A stretch of 39,492 nucleotides of DNA, taken from contig PLMX01000233.1 in assembly GCA_003142635.1 (NCBI GenBank), forward strand, positions 17,392 through 56,883, given 5' to 3'. Below are positions 15,942 through 37,924 of the stretch, piece by piece. Position 1 is the first letter of the stretch, and each line of letters begins with the position of its first letter. A program made the translations under genes and the position numbers. The notes beneath the pieces are model-generated. The model was not told the DNA's origin and did not search any database. It saw only the letters and a program-made list of their open reading frames with translations. The DNA comes from Syntrophaceae bacterium. GTDB lineage: Bacteria; Desulfobacterota; Syntrophia; Syntrophales; UBA2185.

Positions 15942-17000
15942 ATGGGTAAGTCGTACAGAGTCGCCGTAGTTCCGGGTGATGGAACAGGACCCGAGGTAAT
16001 CGCAGAAGGATTGAAGGTCCTCAAGGCTGCCTCCGCAAAGTATGGTTTCAAACTGAACCTGTCCCATTATGATTTGGGAGGCGAGCGATATAAGCGTACC
16101 GGTGAGATATTGAGTGATGAAACCATAGAAGAACTGAGAAAATTTGATGCAATATATCTCGGCGCCATCGGCCATCCCGATGTAAAAGCGGGCATCCTCG
16201 AGAAGGGCATCCTCCTTAAGCTCCGCTTCGCCTTGGATCAATACATAAATCTGCGGCCAGTTAAACTCTACGCCGGCGTCGACACGCCCCTGAAAGACAA
16301 GAAACCGGAGGATATAGATTTCGTTGTCGTCAGGGAAAACACCGAAGGCCTTTATGCAGGCGCGGGCGGGTTCCTGAAGAAGGGCACGGCAGACGAAATC
16401 GCGACTCAGGAATCCATCAACACGCGCAAGGGTGTGGAGCGCTGCGTGAGGTTCGCCTTCGAATACTGCCGCAAACGCAACAAGGCAAAGAAGCTGACGC
16501 TGTGTGGAAAGACCAATGTGCTGACGTATGCCTTCGACCTGTGGGAGAGGACGTTCTACGAAGTGGCGAGAGAATATCCCGACATAAAGACCGAATACGC
16601 CCACGTTGATGCGACCTCTATGTGGATGATAAAGAACCCTGAATGGTTCGATGTGATCGTGACGGACAACCTGTTCGGCGACATCATCACCGATCTCGGA
16701 GCGATGATCCAGGGGGGCATGGGCATAGCCGCGGGCGGCAACATAAATCCGGAGGGCGTCTCCATGTTTGAACCCATAGGCGGCTCAGCGCCCAAATACA
16801 CGGGGCTTAACGTGGTCAATCCGCTTGCCGCCATCATGGCCGGGCAGATGATGCTGGAGACATTGGGAGAAGAGACTGCAGCCGCAGCCATCGAAAAAGC
16901 CGTCATGAAGGTTGTAGCAGAAAAGACGAAAAGCATGTCCGCCGGACAGATGGGTTATTCGACGAGTGAAGTAGGCAGCCTTGTGGCCGGCTTGATTTAG
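15942..17000 (+). CDS. leuB: 3-isopropylmalate dehydrogenase family protein
   Basis: NAD-dependent beta-decarboxylating dehydrogenase, 352 residues. It oxidises and decarboxylates 3-isopropylmalate in leucine synthesis. Visible motifs are VVPGDGTGPEVIAEGL at the N-terminus, VVRENTEGLYAG in the substrate site, the lysine region TLCGKTNVLTY, and VTDNLFGDIITDLGAMIQGGMG with the metal aspartates. FEPIGGSAPKYTGLN is the NAD loop. GGGAGG stands about seven bases before the ATG. The gene is separated by more than 9 kb from leuA-leuC-leuD, which lie further right on the same strand. A tartrate or isocitrate dehydrogenase-like specificity is possible, but the absence of any other leuB in the leu cluster favours this call. 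Confidence 0.85.
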   Translation: MGKSYRVAVVPGDGTGPEVIAEGLKVLKAASAKYGFKLNLSHYDLGGERYKRTGEILSDETIEELRKFDAIYLGAIGHPDVKAGILEKGILLKLRFALDQYINLRPVKLYAGVDTPLKDKKPEDIDFVVVRENTEGLYAGAGGFLKKGTADEIATQESINTRKGVERCVRFAFEYCRKRNKAKKLTLCGKTNVLTYAFDLWERTFYEVAREYPDIKTEYAHVDATSMWMIKNPEWFDVIVTDNLFGDIITDLGAMIQGGMGIAAGGNINPEGVSMFEPIGGSAPKYTGLNVVNPLAAIMAGQMMLETLGEETAAAAIEKAVMKVVAEKTKSMSAGQMGYSTSEVGSLVAGLI

Positions 17001-26152: not shown

Positions 26153-26181
26153 TTGACATAGTTTCTGTTCTGATTTATTCT
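26153..26181 (+). promoter_or_regulatory. Sigma70 promoter of the leu leader and leuA operon
   Basis: A perfect TTGACA at 26153-26158 and TATTCT at 26176-26181 are separated by exactly 17 bases. The transcript would begin at about 26188, some 35 bases before the leader peptide start. Confidence 0.7.
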
Positions 26182-26222
26182 GAGTCCAATAGCAAAAGGA
26201 TTTTCTGAAAAGGACGTTCGGC

Positions 26223-26330
26223 ATGAAGAAGGCATTGGTTAATCTAAACGGCAACGCAACCCTGTTGCTCCTCGCCCTTCTTGGCCTTTTGCCTAACGGC
26301 AGGCGCCCGTCGTTTTTAGGTAATCCGTAA
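26223..26330 (+). CDS. leuL: leu operon leader peptide
   Basis: A 35-codon frame (ATG at 26223, TAA at 26328-26330) with AGGA eight bases before the start. Codons 14-17, 19, 20, 22 and 23 all specify leucine (the run reads LLLLALLGLL), and Leu also occurs at 5, 8 and 32. It lies between a good promoter and an intrinsic terminator, directly upstream of leuA. This is the arrangement of amino-acid attenuators: ribosomes stalled at leucine codons change the folding of the transcript. The peptide itself is not expected to have a function. Confidence 0.85.
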   Translation: MKKALVNLNGNATLLLLALLGLLPNGRRPSFLGNP

Positions 26331-26355
26331 GTCAACCCTAAATAAAACGTACCTA

Positions 26356-26397
26356 AAGGCCATGGGCTCCAGAAGCTCCTGGCCTTTTTTATTTTTT
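26356..26397 (+). terminator. Attenuator terminator of the leu operon
   Basis: AAGGCCA (26356-26362) pairs with TGGCCTT (26380-26386). After one mismatch, GGGCT (26364-26368) pairs with AGCTC (26374-26378) around a five-base loop. A T-rich tract (TTTTTTATTTTTT) follows. Two competing pairings are visible. TGGCCTTT at 26282-26289, in leader codons 20-22, is complementary to AAAGGCCA of the 5' arm. TTTAGGTA at 26315-26322 pairs with TACCTAAA at 26350-26357, which abuts and slightly overlaps that arm. Confidence 0.85.
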
Positions 26398-26421
26398 GGA
26401 TCGGATTAAATGGAGGGGGAT

Positions 26422-27966
26422 ATGGATGCGAAGAAAAAGCGGGTCTTAATATTTGATACGACGCTCAGGGATGGAGAGCAATCACCAGGAGCAAGCATGA
26501 ACTTGGACGAAAAACTGCGAATCGCGAGACAACTCGAAAAGCTCGGTGTAGATATCATCGAGGCGGGATTCCCGATCTCTTCCGACGGCGACTTCCTGGC
26601 CGTGCAGCAGATCGCCCGTGAGGTTAGAGAGCCGCAGATTGCCGCCCTGGCGAGGGCCAATTCCGCCGATATCGACCGCGCCTGGCAGGCCATTAAAGAA
26701 GCGGCGCATCCGCGGATCCACACCTTTATTTCGTCATCCGATATCCATCTGAAGTACCAGCTTAAAAAGACGAGGGCCCAGGTTCTGAAAGAAGCCCGCG
26801 CCGCTGTGGCACGTGCCTGCTCCTACACACCGAATGTGGAGTTCTCTCCCATGGACGCCACGAGAACGGATTGGGATTATCTCTGTGACATGGTGGAAGC
26901 GGTTATCGCAACCGGGGCCACCACCGTGAACATCCCTGACACCGTGGGCTATATAGTGCCAGATGAATTCGGGAGCCTCATCGATTATCTCTTTGCAAAA
27001 GTCAGGAATATCGGCAAGGCCGTTATTTCTGTTCACTGTCATAACGATCTGGGGCTCGCCGTGGCTAATTCTCTGGCCGCCGTCAAACACGGCGCGCGAC
27101 AGGTGGAATGCACAATCAACGGGATCGGAGAGAGGGCCGGGAATGCGGCCATGGAGGAAATCGTTATGGCCCTGGCGACCCGGAAAGACTTCTTTGGATT
27201 TCGCACGGGAATCAAGACGGAACATATCTATCAGTCGTCGAGACTATTAACGCACATAACCGGCATACCTGTTCAGCCGAACAAGGCGATTGTCGGGGCC
27301 AACGCCTTCGCGCACGAATCAGGCATCCACCAGGACGGTTTGATCAAAGAGAAGATCACGTATGAGATTATGACTCCCCGATCCGTCGGCATCTCCGGGA
27401 CCCACCTGGTTCTCGGGAAGCATTCAGGCCGTCATGCCGTCTCCGAACATCTCAAGAAGATGGGTTATAAGCTGAACGCTGGTGAAGTTAAGAAGGTCGT
27501 TGTGAGGTTCAAGGAACTGGCCGACGTCAAGAAAGAAATCTTTGATGAAGATCTGGAGGCCATTGTATATGAAGAAGTGTACAAGATTGCCGAGAGGTAC
27601 AAACTGGTATCTCTGACTGTGTTAAGCGGCAACGTGGCCGTACCCACGGCGACTATGCAGATGGAAGTAGACGGGAAGACCATTCAGGACGCGGGTTTTG
27701 GCGTGGGGCCTGTGGATGCAACCTTCGCTGCCATCAGGAAAATTACCAAGACCAACTACCACCTGCTCAAGTACGCGGTTTCCGCTATTACCGGAGGAAC
27801 CGATGCCTTGGGAGAGGTCATGGTTCAACTCAAGTACAACGGGCGCTCTGTGGCCGGACGCGGCGCCGAGCCTGATGTTATTGTCGCTTCTGCAAAAGCG
27901 TATATCAATGCACTAAACCGCCTTGAGTTTCTCAAAGGCGATGTGAAAAAGGTTAAAGTTGTGTAA
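26422..27966 (+). CDS. leuA: 2-isopropylmalate synthase
   Basis: First enzyme of the leucine branch, joining acetyl-CoA and 2-ketoisovalerate; 514 residues, the usual size of the long LeuA form. The catalytic barrel begins with [13 protein letters not shown] (residues 11-23) and includes [20 protein letters not shown] (metal histidines), [16 protein letters not shown] and [13 protein letters not shown]. The C-terminal regulatory domain (from about residue 380) is present, so feedback inhibition by leucine is likely. The start at 26422 has GGAGG at the right distance; an ATG at 26410 has none. LeuA-like homocitrate or citramalate synthases are less likely given leuC, leuD and the leucine-rich leader. 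Confidence 0.95.
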
Positions 27967-28020: not shown

Positions 28021-29280
28021 GTGGGAATGACCATCACAGAAAAGATACTGTGCCGCCATACAGATCTCAAAGAGCTACATCCGGGGATGCTGATAAACGC
28101 AAGAGTGGATATCGCGCTCGGGAACGATATAACGGCTCCTATAGCTATCGCGGAATTCAGAAAAGCCGGGGGGCTCAAGGTCTTTGATCGGGATAAGGTG
28201 GTGCTTATACCTGATCACTTCACGCCTAATAAAGACATCGATTCAGCCCAGCAGTGTAAGTTCATGAGAGAATTTGCACGGGAGCAGGGATTAACCCACT
28301 ACTATGACGTTGGTGAAGTGGGCATTGAACATGCCCTCCTTCCTGAACAGGGTATCGTTCTCCCCGGAGACCTGGTCATCGGCGCCGACAGCCATACCTG
28401 CACATACGGCGCCCTCGGGGCGTTTGCCACCGGCGTTGGCAGCACCGATTTTGCGGCTGCCATGATGACCGGTGAGGTCTGGTTCAAGGTCCCTGAGACG
28501 ATGAAGATCGTCTTTTCCGGCAAGATGAAGAAATGGGTTTCCGGCAAAGACCTGATCCTCTATATCATCGGCTCGATCGGCGTCGATGGCGCTCTTTACA
28601 AGGCGATGGAGTTCGTAGGTGAGACCATAGGGCAGCTCTCCATGGCGGACAGATTGACCATAGCCAACATGGTCATTGAAGCAGGCGCAAAGAACGGTAT
28701 CTTCATACCGGACGATATAACGAAGGCTTATGTAGCGGAAAGGGCAAAGCGGCCTTACAGTTTTTATAACTCTGACCCTGATTGTCAATATGCCGATGTC
28801 ATCAATATCGATGTCAGCGGAATCGAGCCGCAGGTAGCATTCCCTCACATTCCTTCAAACGTCAGGGGGATCAGTCAGGTGGGCGATGTCAAGATTGATC
28901 AGGTTGTTATCGGATCATGCACCAACGGCAGGATAGAAGACCTCCGGGTTGCAGCGGGCATTCTCAAGAATAAGAAAGCGGCGCCCGGTGTCCGTTTGAT
29001 CATCGTACCCGCCACACAGGGAATATACAAACAGGCCCTTCAGGAAGGCCTCATAGAGATATTTATCGACGCGCATGCGGCGGTCAGCACGCCGACCTGC
29101 GGCGCATGTCTGGGCGGTCATATGGGAGTACTGGCTGACGGCGAGAGAGCCGTTTCCACGACGAACAGGAATTTCATTGGGCGCATGGGGCATACCGGCA
29201 GTGAAGTATATCTGGCCGGTCCCGCTGTTGCCGCGGCGTCGGCCGTCTTGGGACGGATAGCCGGTCCGGAGGAGTTGTAG
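28021..29280 (+). CDS. leuC: 3-isopropylmalate dehydratase large subunit
   Basis: Large subunit of isopropylmalate isomerase, 419 residues, the length of the archaeal or short bacterial LeuC type rather than the 466-residue enterobacterial one. It is an aconitase-family enzyme with a 4Fe-4S cluster. The cluster cysteines are in IGSCTNGR (about residue 300) and in [13 protein letters not shown] (about residues 359-362). [20 protein letters not shown] is the substrate segment. The start is a GTG at 28021 with GGAGAG about ten bases upstream; ATG at 28027 is the alternative. It follows leuA by 54 bases. A homoaconitase-like specificity cannot be excluded from sequence alone. Confidence 0.92.
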
Positions 29281-29473: not shown

Positions 29474-29968
29474 ATGAAGTTCAGAGGAAAAGTCTGGAAA
29501 TTTGGAGATAACGTAGATACAGATGCTATCATCGCGGCCCGATACTTGGTATCATCCGATCCTGCGTTTCTTGCCGCGCACTGCATGGAAGACGCCGACC
29601 CTGATTTCATGAAAAAAATCAGCGCCGGCGACATCATTGTAGCAGGAGAGAATTTCGGCTGCGGCTCATCGAGAGAACACGCGCCTATCGCCATCAAGAC
29701 CGCCGGGATTTCCTGTGTCGTCGCCAAGAGTTTTGCCCGCATATTTTACCGGAATGCCTTCAACATCGGACTGCCCATTTTTGAATCAAGGGATTTGTGG
29801 GATGCCGTCTCTGATGGCCAGGAGATCGAAGTGGATGGTGATAATGGAAGCATCAGGATTTTAAACAGCAATAGAGGTCCGCTTCGTATAGAGCCCATTC
29901 CACCGTTCATGCAGCAACTCGTGAGCGACGGCGGCTTGATGAAGCACATCGCAAAGAAGAAAGCATAA
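29474..29968 (+). CDS. leuD: 3-isopropylmalate dehydratase small subunit
   Basis: Swivelling small subunit of isopropylmalate isomerase, 164 residues, the short type that pairs with 419-residue LeuC. The opening FRGKVWKFGDNVDTDAIIAARYL, shown here as FGDNVDTDAI, and the substrate loop GENFGCGSSREHAP are diagnostic. VVAKSFARIFYRNAFNIGLP is equally typical. GGTGAG precedes the ATG. The gap from leuC is 193 bases and holds the interspersed repeat, so leuD may depend on read-through across that hairpin. Confidence 0.94.
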   Translation: MKFRGKVWKFGDNVDTDAIIAARYLVSSDPAFLAAHCMEDADPDFMKKISAGDIIVAGENFGCGSSREHAPIAIKTAGISCVVAKSFARIFYRNAFNIGLPIFESRDLWDAVSDGQEIEVDGDNGSIRILNSNRGPLRIEPIPPFMQQLVSDGGLMKHIAKKKA

Positions 29969-36590: not shown

Positions 36591-36677
36591 GCCGAAGTGG
36601 CGGAACTGGTAGACGCGCTAGGTTCAGGGTCTAGTGGGGGGTTCTCCGTCCCGGTTCAAATCCGGGCTTCGGCACCA
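36591..36677 (+). tRNA. tRNA-Leu (CAG anticodon)
   Basis: GCCGAAG (36591-36597) pairs with CTTCGGC (36667-36673) as the acceptor stem, followed by ACCA with the CCA encoded. The anticodon arm CTAGG-TTCAGGG-TCTAG gives a CAG anticodon, which reads CUG leucine codons. The long variable arm (around GTGGGGGGTTCTCCGTC) is the class II mark of leucine and serine tRNAs. The T arm is CCCGG-TTCAAAT-CCGGG. Its last 22 bases also form the end of the integrase gene. Confidence 0.95.
36656..36677. mobile_element. Minimum left attachment core of the integrated element
   Basis: The integrase stop lies in the T loop and the last residues (GAEARI) are encoded by tRNA sequence. An element inserted at this tRNA 3' end should carry this segment as the crossover core so that both the tRNA and the integrase stay intact. 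The second copy is not in the window, so only the minimum extent of the core can be given. Confidence 0.55.
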
Positions 36678-37924
36678 AAGATAGAAGAAGGAAATGAGGG
36701 GGTTAGCTGATTCATCGGTTGACCCTCTTTTTCGTTTGGGGGTACTTGGTCAACGTTTTGGTCAACATTTGCGAACAAGCCCTGCATATAGAGCGAAAAC
36801 TTGTCCATCGCCTGTCGAAGATCGTCCTCGTCAATCGCATTGTATCGGTCAAACATCGAAGTTTGAGCGTGTCCTGTTATCGCCATAATCACGGACTGAG
36901 CAACACCCGCTTTTCTCATGTAGGTAGTGAATGAGTGTCTCAGATCGTGGAAGACAAAACCGTTCTTTGTTTTCCTACCATAGGGAATTCCTGCATCACG
37001 ACAAGCCGTCTTCAAAGCTGTCCGAATATCCTTAATCGGTTTTCCGGTATACAGGAATAAATGATCGTCATGGACGGCAACCGGGATGTCTTTCAGTATA
37101 GAGTACAGTTCATCACAAATAGGAACTTTGCGTGGTTCACTGTCCTTGGTGTCGGCTGCATCAAGCTTAATCATCCTCTTTTTAAAATCGACTTTCGGAC
37201 GGATGGTATCAACAATTTCACCTTCTCGCATACCAGTGTAGAAACCAGTGGCAACCATACCCTTTGTAGGCATACGTGATGCTGCTAAGAGCTTCTTGAT
37301 TTCAACCGGGCTTAAAATCCTGTCCCGCGCATTAGCATTTCGCTTGAGTAATTTTTTGACCTTCCTGAAAACCTTAACAGTGTCACCGCTTACCAGATCA
37401 TCGTCAAACGCTTTATTGATAACCGCTCGTGCTGCTCCGATTTCCTGATCAATGTATGAATCAGAATAACCTGCCGCTTTTCTCTTTGCCTGATAATTCT
37501 GTAAGGCAGATGTCTTTATATCCCTGACCATGGTTTCTCCAAATTCTTTGTTAAAACTGGAAAGATTAATCGTCAAGGTTTCGTAGTACGCTTTGGATTT
37601 GACTATTTCCAAGTCAAGATACCATTTACTAAGTTCATTGAAGGGCATCTTTGCATCAGGCTTGATATCAAATATCCTATTCTCCCGTTTCTGACTTCTC
37701 CGTTTGCCTTCAGCGTCCCTTGCTTCCTCAATGGAAAAGCCCACAGCCTCACGCCTTTGTTTCCCGCCCGGTAGTCTGTAGCTAATCCAGTAAGTGACTC
37801 TTAATTTAGCGTCTGGGTTTGTATTATTCTTTTTAATCTTGTCCAGCTTAGCCCCACAATGACATACTTTATTACTTACTTTTTGTTTTCTGTGGCATAT
37901 GGGACATTCTGCTAAAATCGCCAT
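36656..37924 (-). CDS. Tyrosine recombinase / integrase of the tRNA-Leu element
   Basis: Site-specific integrase of 422 residues. An N-terminal zinc-ribbon-like motif (CPIC at 7-10, CHC at 21-23) precedes the arm-binding region and a core-binding SAM-like domain (about 95-190). The catalytic residues are Arg233 in GFYTGMREGEI, Lys260 in DTKDSEPRK, His326 and Arg329 in FHDLRHSF, His352 in TGHAQT and the nucleophile Tyr361 in DRYNAID. AAAGGAGG stands before the ATG, and the start shares one base with the stop of a 39-codon ORF. The gene reads toward the tRNA and ends inside it, as expected for an element integrated at a tRNA 3' end. Confidence 0.93.
   Translation of the reverse strand: MAILAECPICHRKQKVSNKVCHCGAKLDKIKKNNTNPDAKLRVTYWISYRLPGGKQRREAVGFSIEEARDAEGKRRSQKRENRIFDIKPDAKMPFNELSKWYLDLEIVKSKAYYETLTINLSSFNKEFGETMVRDIKTSALQNYQAKRKAAGYSDSYIDQEIGAARAVINKAFDDDLVSGDTVKVFRKVKKLLKRNANARDRILSPVEIKKLLAASRMPTKGMVATGFYTGMREGEIVDTIRPKVDFKKRMIKLDAADTKDSEPRKVPICDELYSILKDIPVAVHDDHLFLYTGKPIKDIRTALKTACRDAGIPYGRKTKNGFVFHDLRHSFTTYMRKAGVAQSVIMAITGHAQTSMFDRYNAIDEDDLRQAMDKFSLYMQGLFANVDQNVDQVPPNEKEGQPMNQLTPSFPSSIFGAEARI

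Follow-up and report, generated by a model that had tools for sequence, protein, structure and literature searches.

Organization of the leuA upstream region

The window, a 39,492-nucleotide stretch of DNA, derives from a MAG of the Syntrophales, Thermodesulfobacteriota, the order and phylum to which Syntrophaceae are assigned (NCBI taxonomy). Its closest named relatives are Syntrophaceae MAGs of fen origin. The window carries the leucine biosynthesis genes leuA, leuC and leuD, preceded by a short open reading frame and a hairpin (Table 1). All elements named in the original prediction were present in the sequence: a promoter, a ribosome binding site, a 35-codon leader with eight leucines in codons 14–23, and a hairpin followed by a T-tract upstream of leuA. 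The leader reading frame translates into MKKALVNLNGNATLLLLALLGLLPNGRRPSFLGNP, in which leucine occupies codons 14–17, 19, 20, 22 and 23. Ten of twelve bases of the predicted promoter agree with the consensus, its score being this consensus match alone. The terminator hairpin (approx. 26355–26387) with its T-tract was calculated to fold with -18.4 kcal/mol.

Table 1. Features of the leuA locus and its leader in the window.
Feature	Coordinates	Strand	Basis
Predicted sigma-70-type promoter	26153..26181	+	TTGACA 26153-26158, 17 nt, TATTCT 26176-26181
Segment 1, ribosome-binding and start-codon region	26197..26223	+	Complementary to segment 2
Leader Shine-Dalgarno AAGGAC	26210..26215	+	Sequence
Leader peptide ORF, 35 codons and TAA, ATG at 26223	26223..26330	+	Conserved before leuA of relatives
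Sensor, 8 Leu in 10 codons (codons 14-23)	26262..26291	+	Sequence
Segment 2, GCCCGTCGTTTTTAGGTA, antiterminator 5′ strand within the last leader codons	26305..26322	+	Pairing, conservation
Stop codon of the leader, starting 6 nt after segment 2	26328..26330	+	Distance measured
Segment 3, TACCTAAAGGCCATGGGC, antiterminator 3′ strand and terminator 5′ arm	26350..26367	+	Pairing
Segment 4 and T-tract, terminator 3′ arm GCTCCTGGCC then T6	26375..26390	+	Sequence; covariation with segment 3
leuA, 2-isopropylmalate synthase	26422..27966	+	NF002086, TIGR00973 above cut-off
leuC, 3-isopropylmalate dehydratase large subunit	28021..29280	+	TIGR02083 above cut-off
leuD, 3-isopropylmalate dehydratase small subunit	29474..29968	+	TIGR02087 subfamily above cut-off

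The leuA product also scored above the cut-off of the NCBIfam equivalog PRK00915. Its reading frame is open from 26410, the start given by the ORF finder. The ATG at 26422 is the more likely start because GGAGGGGG (26412–26419) is located between the two positions. A leuB-like dehydrogenase reading frame, below the TIGR00169 cut-off, lies apart from leuACD at 15942–17000. At 36591–37924 a phage-type integrase gene adjoins a tRNA gene, and a SIR2-like protein is encoded further along; this region is possibly an integrated element.

A conserved antiterminator predicted to compete with the terminator

Alignment of related loci displayed a near-invariant GCCCGTCGTTTTTAGG directly after the leucine codons. 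In the window, segments 2 and 3 form an 18-position helix interrupted by a single C-C mismatch, and segment 3 holds the entire 5′ arm of the terminator. The isolated stretch of the window folded into exactly this helix (z -5.2). Across loci, the segment 2:3 duplex had a mean energy of -18.9 kcal/mol compared to -9.1 kcal/mol with shuffled segment 2. Paired cells amounted to 90.6%, while 500 cross-locus permutations reached at most 89.0%. The comparison of leuA upstream regions of relatives, suggested in the original prediction, revealed that the leucine leader is kept and that 15 segment 2:3 cells changed on both sides compared to 6.4, a count above all 500 shuffles. Since the sequences are so conserved, this covariation is modest. 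Covariation of the terminator (segment 3:4) is clear: 99.4% of its cells were paired, and 27 had changed on both sides compared to 10.2. The antiterminator was not found at one locus (L016). An antiterminator that excludes the terminator is a conserved feature of these leaders.

Both alternative pairings of the original prediction are complementary in the window as claimed, and their fates differed. The pairing of TTTAGGTA with TACCTAAA proved correct and constitutes the upper portion of the 18-position helix that uses 26305–26322. The other pairing would make the leucine codons themselves (codons 20–23, TGGCCTTT, 26282–26289) the antiterminator by pairing with AAAGGCCA. It is not conserved: the nearest relative (L002), whose LeuA is 98% identical, has TTCGCCTT at this site, and it and nearly all other relatives are devoid of GGCCTT. 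As the segment 2:3 pairing is both longer and conserved, we consider an antiterminator formed by the leucine codons very unlikely despite the complementarity in the window.

Segment 2 translates as PSFLG at leuA and, one frame over, as PVVFR at a second target described below. The sequences indicate that segment 2 is conserved as RNA and not as peptide. The leader might alternatively be a functional small membrane peptide whose link to leuA is incidental, and its Leu-rich stretch does resemble what could be a short membrane helix. However, the C-terminal residues shift with the frame while the RNA is constant, and leaders of other pathways carry Lys, Trp or Tyr runs instead, which leaves this explanation barely credible.

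Leader geometry and folding energetics

Wherever the leader uses the PSFLG frame, its stop codon follows segment 2 by 6 nt, with L092 as sole exception; in leaders using the other frame it is found -1 to 5 nt from segment 2. The last leucine codon starts a median of 13 nt before segment 2 (range 8–20, all loci). A ribosome covers approx. 12 nt ahead of its A-site codon. With such a footprint, segment 2 would lie just beyond a ribosome that waits at the last leucine codon, and approx. two thirds of it would be covered by a ribosome at the stop codon. A stalled ribosome would thus leave the antiterminator strand exposed and a finishing ribosome would cover it.

The best upstream complement of segment 2 was located at about -16 to +12 of the leader start and is centred on the start codon across loci (segment 1 of the window). 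Pairing of segments 1 and 2 was clear or strong in no more than about one half of the loci and absent in some. In 57 of 59 loci, the antiterminator reached a probability above 0.5 when segment 4 was not yet made. Once the whole RNA was present with segment 2 unoccupied, equilibrium folding preferred the terminator in 54 of 58 loci, and only four, among them the window (0.87), favoured the antiterminator. The switch must therefore be kinetic and operate during transcription in most relatives. Equilibrium folding, which fails for most relatives, was discarded as proof of the switch.

Proposed mechanism

The stretch before leuA is, judged from these sequence data, very probably a ribosome-mediated transcription attenuator that senses charged tRNA-Leu. 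As is characteristic of this mechanistic class, the reading frame, which appears to be translated, is rich in codons of the pathway, and a predicted intrinsic terminator separates the leader from the first gene. Translation of the leader is suggested by its start codon, ribosome binding site and conservation. From the observed sequence, conservation, complementarity, covariation, geometry and match of codons to pathway, we infer how the ribosome stalls, transcription terminates and the system responds to leucine, as follows. When leucine is scarce, the leader ribosome would stall within codons 14–23. Even at the last sensor codon its leading edge would end just short of segment 2, which would be free to pair with the emerging segment 3. 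The 5′ arm of the terminator would then be taken and leuACD transcribed. When leucine is plentiful, the ribosome would get to the stop codon at 26328 and cover most of segment 2, so that segment 3 would pair with segment 4 and transcription would terminate at approx. 26390. If no ribosome is loaded, segment 1 could pair with segment 2 and leave the terminator to form.

Distribution in Syntrophales and a second target

A Leu-rich leader was kept at approx. 53 of the 55 Syntrophales-type leuA loci with enough upstream sequence, roughly 180–400 bases upstream of leuA. Leucine attenuation before leuA, as originally predicted, is strongly supported. No leucine leader was found before more distant leuA genes, e.g. 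those of Nitrospirota.

Genome-wide checks were performed by pattern and model searches. Model R1, built from these leaders, detected a second copy in the window's genome upstream of a 2-oxoacid:ferredoxin oxidoreductase operon of the PorC/KorC type, where the leader reads MTFASIRRELFYLCTSRLLLLALLLTRPPASPVVFRTG. The leuA and oxidoreductase leaders are alike at the DNA level (blastn), and the two sequences likely share descent. Model R2 (E<=1e-7) recovered the element from 118 of 155 genomes in the order, spanning 43 of 53 genera. Weak model matches of 30–38 bits were left out of the membership. Matches of 20–27 bits on the opposite strand represent the terminator read in reverse and were not counted as members.

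Similar leaders with other sensor codons

The model also matched leaders with other sensor codons in Thermodesulfobacteriota. Lys-rich leaders precede dapA, e.g. MRSHIQEDKKKGKKQEVKKTGAPIALGMF, and leaders with Trp runs precede TrpB-like genes and trpE. Leaders with Phe/Tyr runs were found before genes for DAHP synthase, ADH synthase, shikimate kinase, indolepyruvate oxidoreductase and a PLP aminotransferase; some gene families of these other-pathway targets were assigned from N-terminal fragments only. The third match in the window's genome, MNTNGLNKGFYYWNYYYLLVCLLLRRY, is located before DAHP synthase.

Several individual loci deserve mention. In the window's genome, DAHP synthase is preceded by an aromatic leader that has two GCCATGG terminators in tandem (L287, C136:4050-6200). 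Another locus (L267, G098:C206) combines two tandem hairpins with the leader MTNHLSKKYETCAIADPGYYYYYYYYYYSGMRLCALSL, which contains ten consecutive Tyr codons, before a tryptophanase/tyrosine phenol-lyase-like gene. FYFYF-type leaders at L230, L279, L281 and L282 precede a PRK06836-like aminotransferase, and their codons suggest that this enzyme makes aromatic amino acids. At L219 and L227, the Leu-rich leader MGQAVSAYRLLSLLLGLVLKGCPLPERS is followed by a FabK-like gene and no obvious leucine gene.

Some candidates were set aside as non-members or as unclear cases. L274 and L285 are plain terminators without a leader. At L214 and L224 a gene for an ABC substrate-binding protein follows a similar hairpin with no clear leader, L216 and L218 precede an EamA-type transporter, and the Leu-rich leader of L191 has no identified gene.

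In every significant call except L212, the residue set with the strongest enrichment was the one expected for the pathway (approx. 122 automatic calls, some loci being counted twice and two FabK-like Leu calls having no expectation). Shuffled upstream regions were significant for any of the four residue sets in 12 of 945 cases, with the sets and the cut-off of p<1e-4 chosen by the analyst. In a strict 10-residue test only one of 13 dapA leaders passed, the dapA leaders being Lys-rich over a longer stretch, and trpE leaders with two or three Trp failed.

The bare hairpin pattern, for which no leader was required, occurred at 45 places in 18 genomes (0–6 per genome), which were not random and had been chosen since most already had matches. 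A reversed hairpin control pattern was absent from the same 18 genomes. Approx. 41 of the 45 places precede amino-acid genes, and almost every one of these has a leader whose codons fit the pathway. G036:C32 and G210:C304 clearly depart from this rule; at G370:C123 a Leu-rich leader is followed by no identified gene.

These data also bear on control that does not involve translation. A metabolite-binding riboswitch, a T-box or an RNA-binding protein might act on the conserved hairpin, and a common binding protein could explain why an unusually conserved hairpin is found across pathways. However, the codons of the leader nearly always correspond to the pathway encoded downstream, and only translation needs the near-fixed distances of stop and sensor codons to segment 2. 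Moreover, no Rfam riboswitch or T-box matched in the window and 15 related loci: the covariance model of the Leu_leader (RF00512) gave no match at the gathering or a relaxed threshold, that of the T-box (RF00230) gave none, and the relaxed Rfam search returned chance matches only. We regard non-translational control as highly improbable.

Evidence for a single family comes from the shared rare hairpin and the model matches; the likeness in segment 2 follows from function. Attenuators of different pathways might also have converged, with the GCCATGGGC stem being the preferred attenuator stem of this lineage. Any such switch requires a segment 2 that resembles segment 4, which deprives that likeness of weight as independent evidence, and it is mainly through the hairpin that the model recognizes the Trp and aromatic versions. 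Against convergence stand the rarity of the GCCATGGGC stem in the genomes searched, its position before amino-acid genes with matching leaders and the blastn similarity of the leuA and oxidoreductase leaders. Convergence is a less likely but credible alternative. We moderately favour one ancestral attenuator that was copied within and between Thermodesulfobacteriota genomes while only its sensor codons were replaced for Leu, Lys, Trp and Phe/Tyr genes, including the Lys leader at dapA and the ten-Tyr leader.

Implications

A 2013 survey of Rfam motifs, which lists the RF00512 Leu_leader family, suggests in its treatment of amino-acid attenuators that these may originate in gamma-proteobacteria with few transfers (PMC3766115). 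Such attenuators appear to be common in Thermodesulfobacteriota, with one recognisable hairpin and a lysine sensor. The hairpin provides a simple search key. The sensor codons in turn predict functions: aromatic specificity of an unassigned aminotransferase, a role of TrpB-like proteins in tryptophan metabolism and leucine-linked control of the 2-oxoacid:ferredoxin oxidoreductase. If one attenuator has indeed been re-used across pathways, it would be the translated counterpart of the T-box.

Comparison with known systems

Ribosome-mediated attenuation itself is a known mechanism. A hairpin common to leaders whose sensor codons are exchanged, Lys codons among them, looks new. A search of the open-access literature, with subscription journals mostly outside its reach, yielded nothing like a shared hairpin family for Thermodesulfobacteriota and no leader-peptide attenuator for lysine biosynthesis.

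Enterobacterial leuL (RF00512) has a leader peptide with leucine codons, a competing antiterminator and terminator and a leu operon downstream, and the Syntrophales leader shares all three. In contrast to leuL, the final part of the leader reading frame contains the antiterminator strand, and the same hairpin occurs before other pathways. To our knowledge, no hairpin is shared among the leader-peptide attenuators of Actinobacteria. The latter likewise represent ribosome-mediated attenuation outside gamma-proteobacteria (PMC1262725), but belong to another phylum. Segment 1 of the present leaders is the ribosome-binding and start-codon region, whereas in E. coli trpL it comprises sensor codons. 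The four-segment logic of pre-emptor (1:2), antiterminator (2:3) and terminator (3:4) is common to both. T-box riboswitches likewise re-use one conserved RNA architecture for many amino acids by changing the specifier. Unlike the T-box specifier, a codon read by tRNA, the specifier of these leaders would be a translated codon run read by the ribosome.
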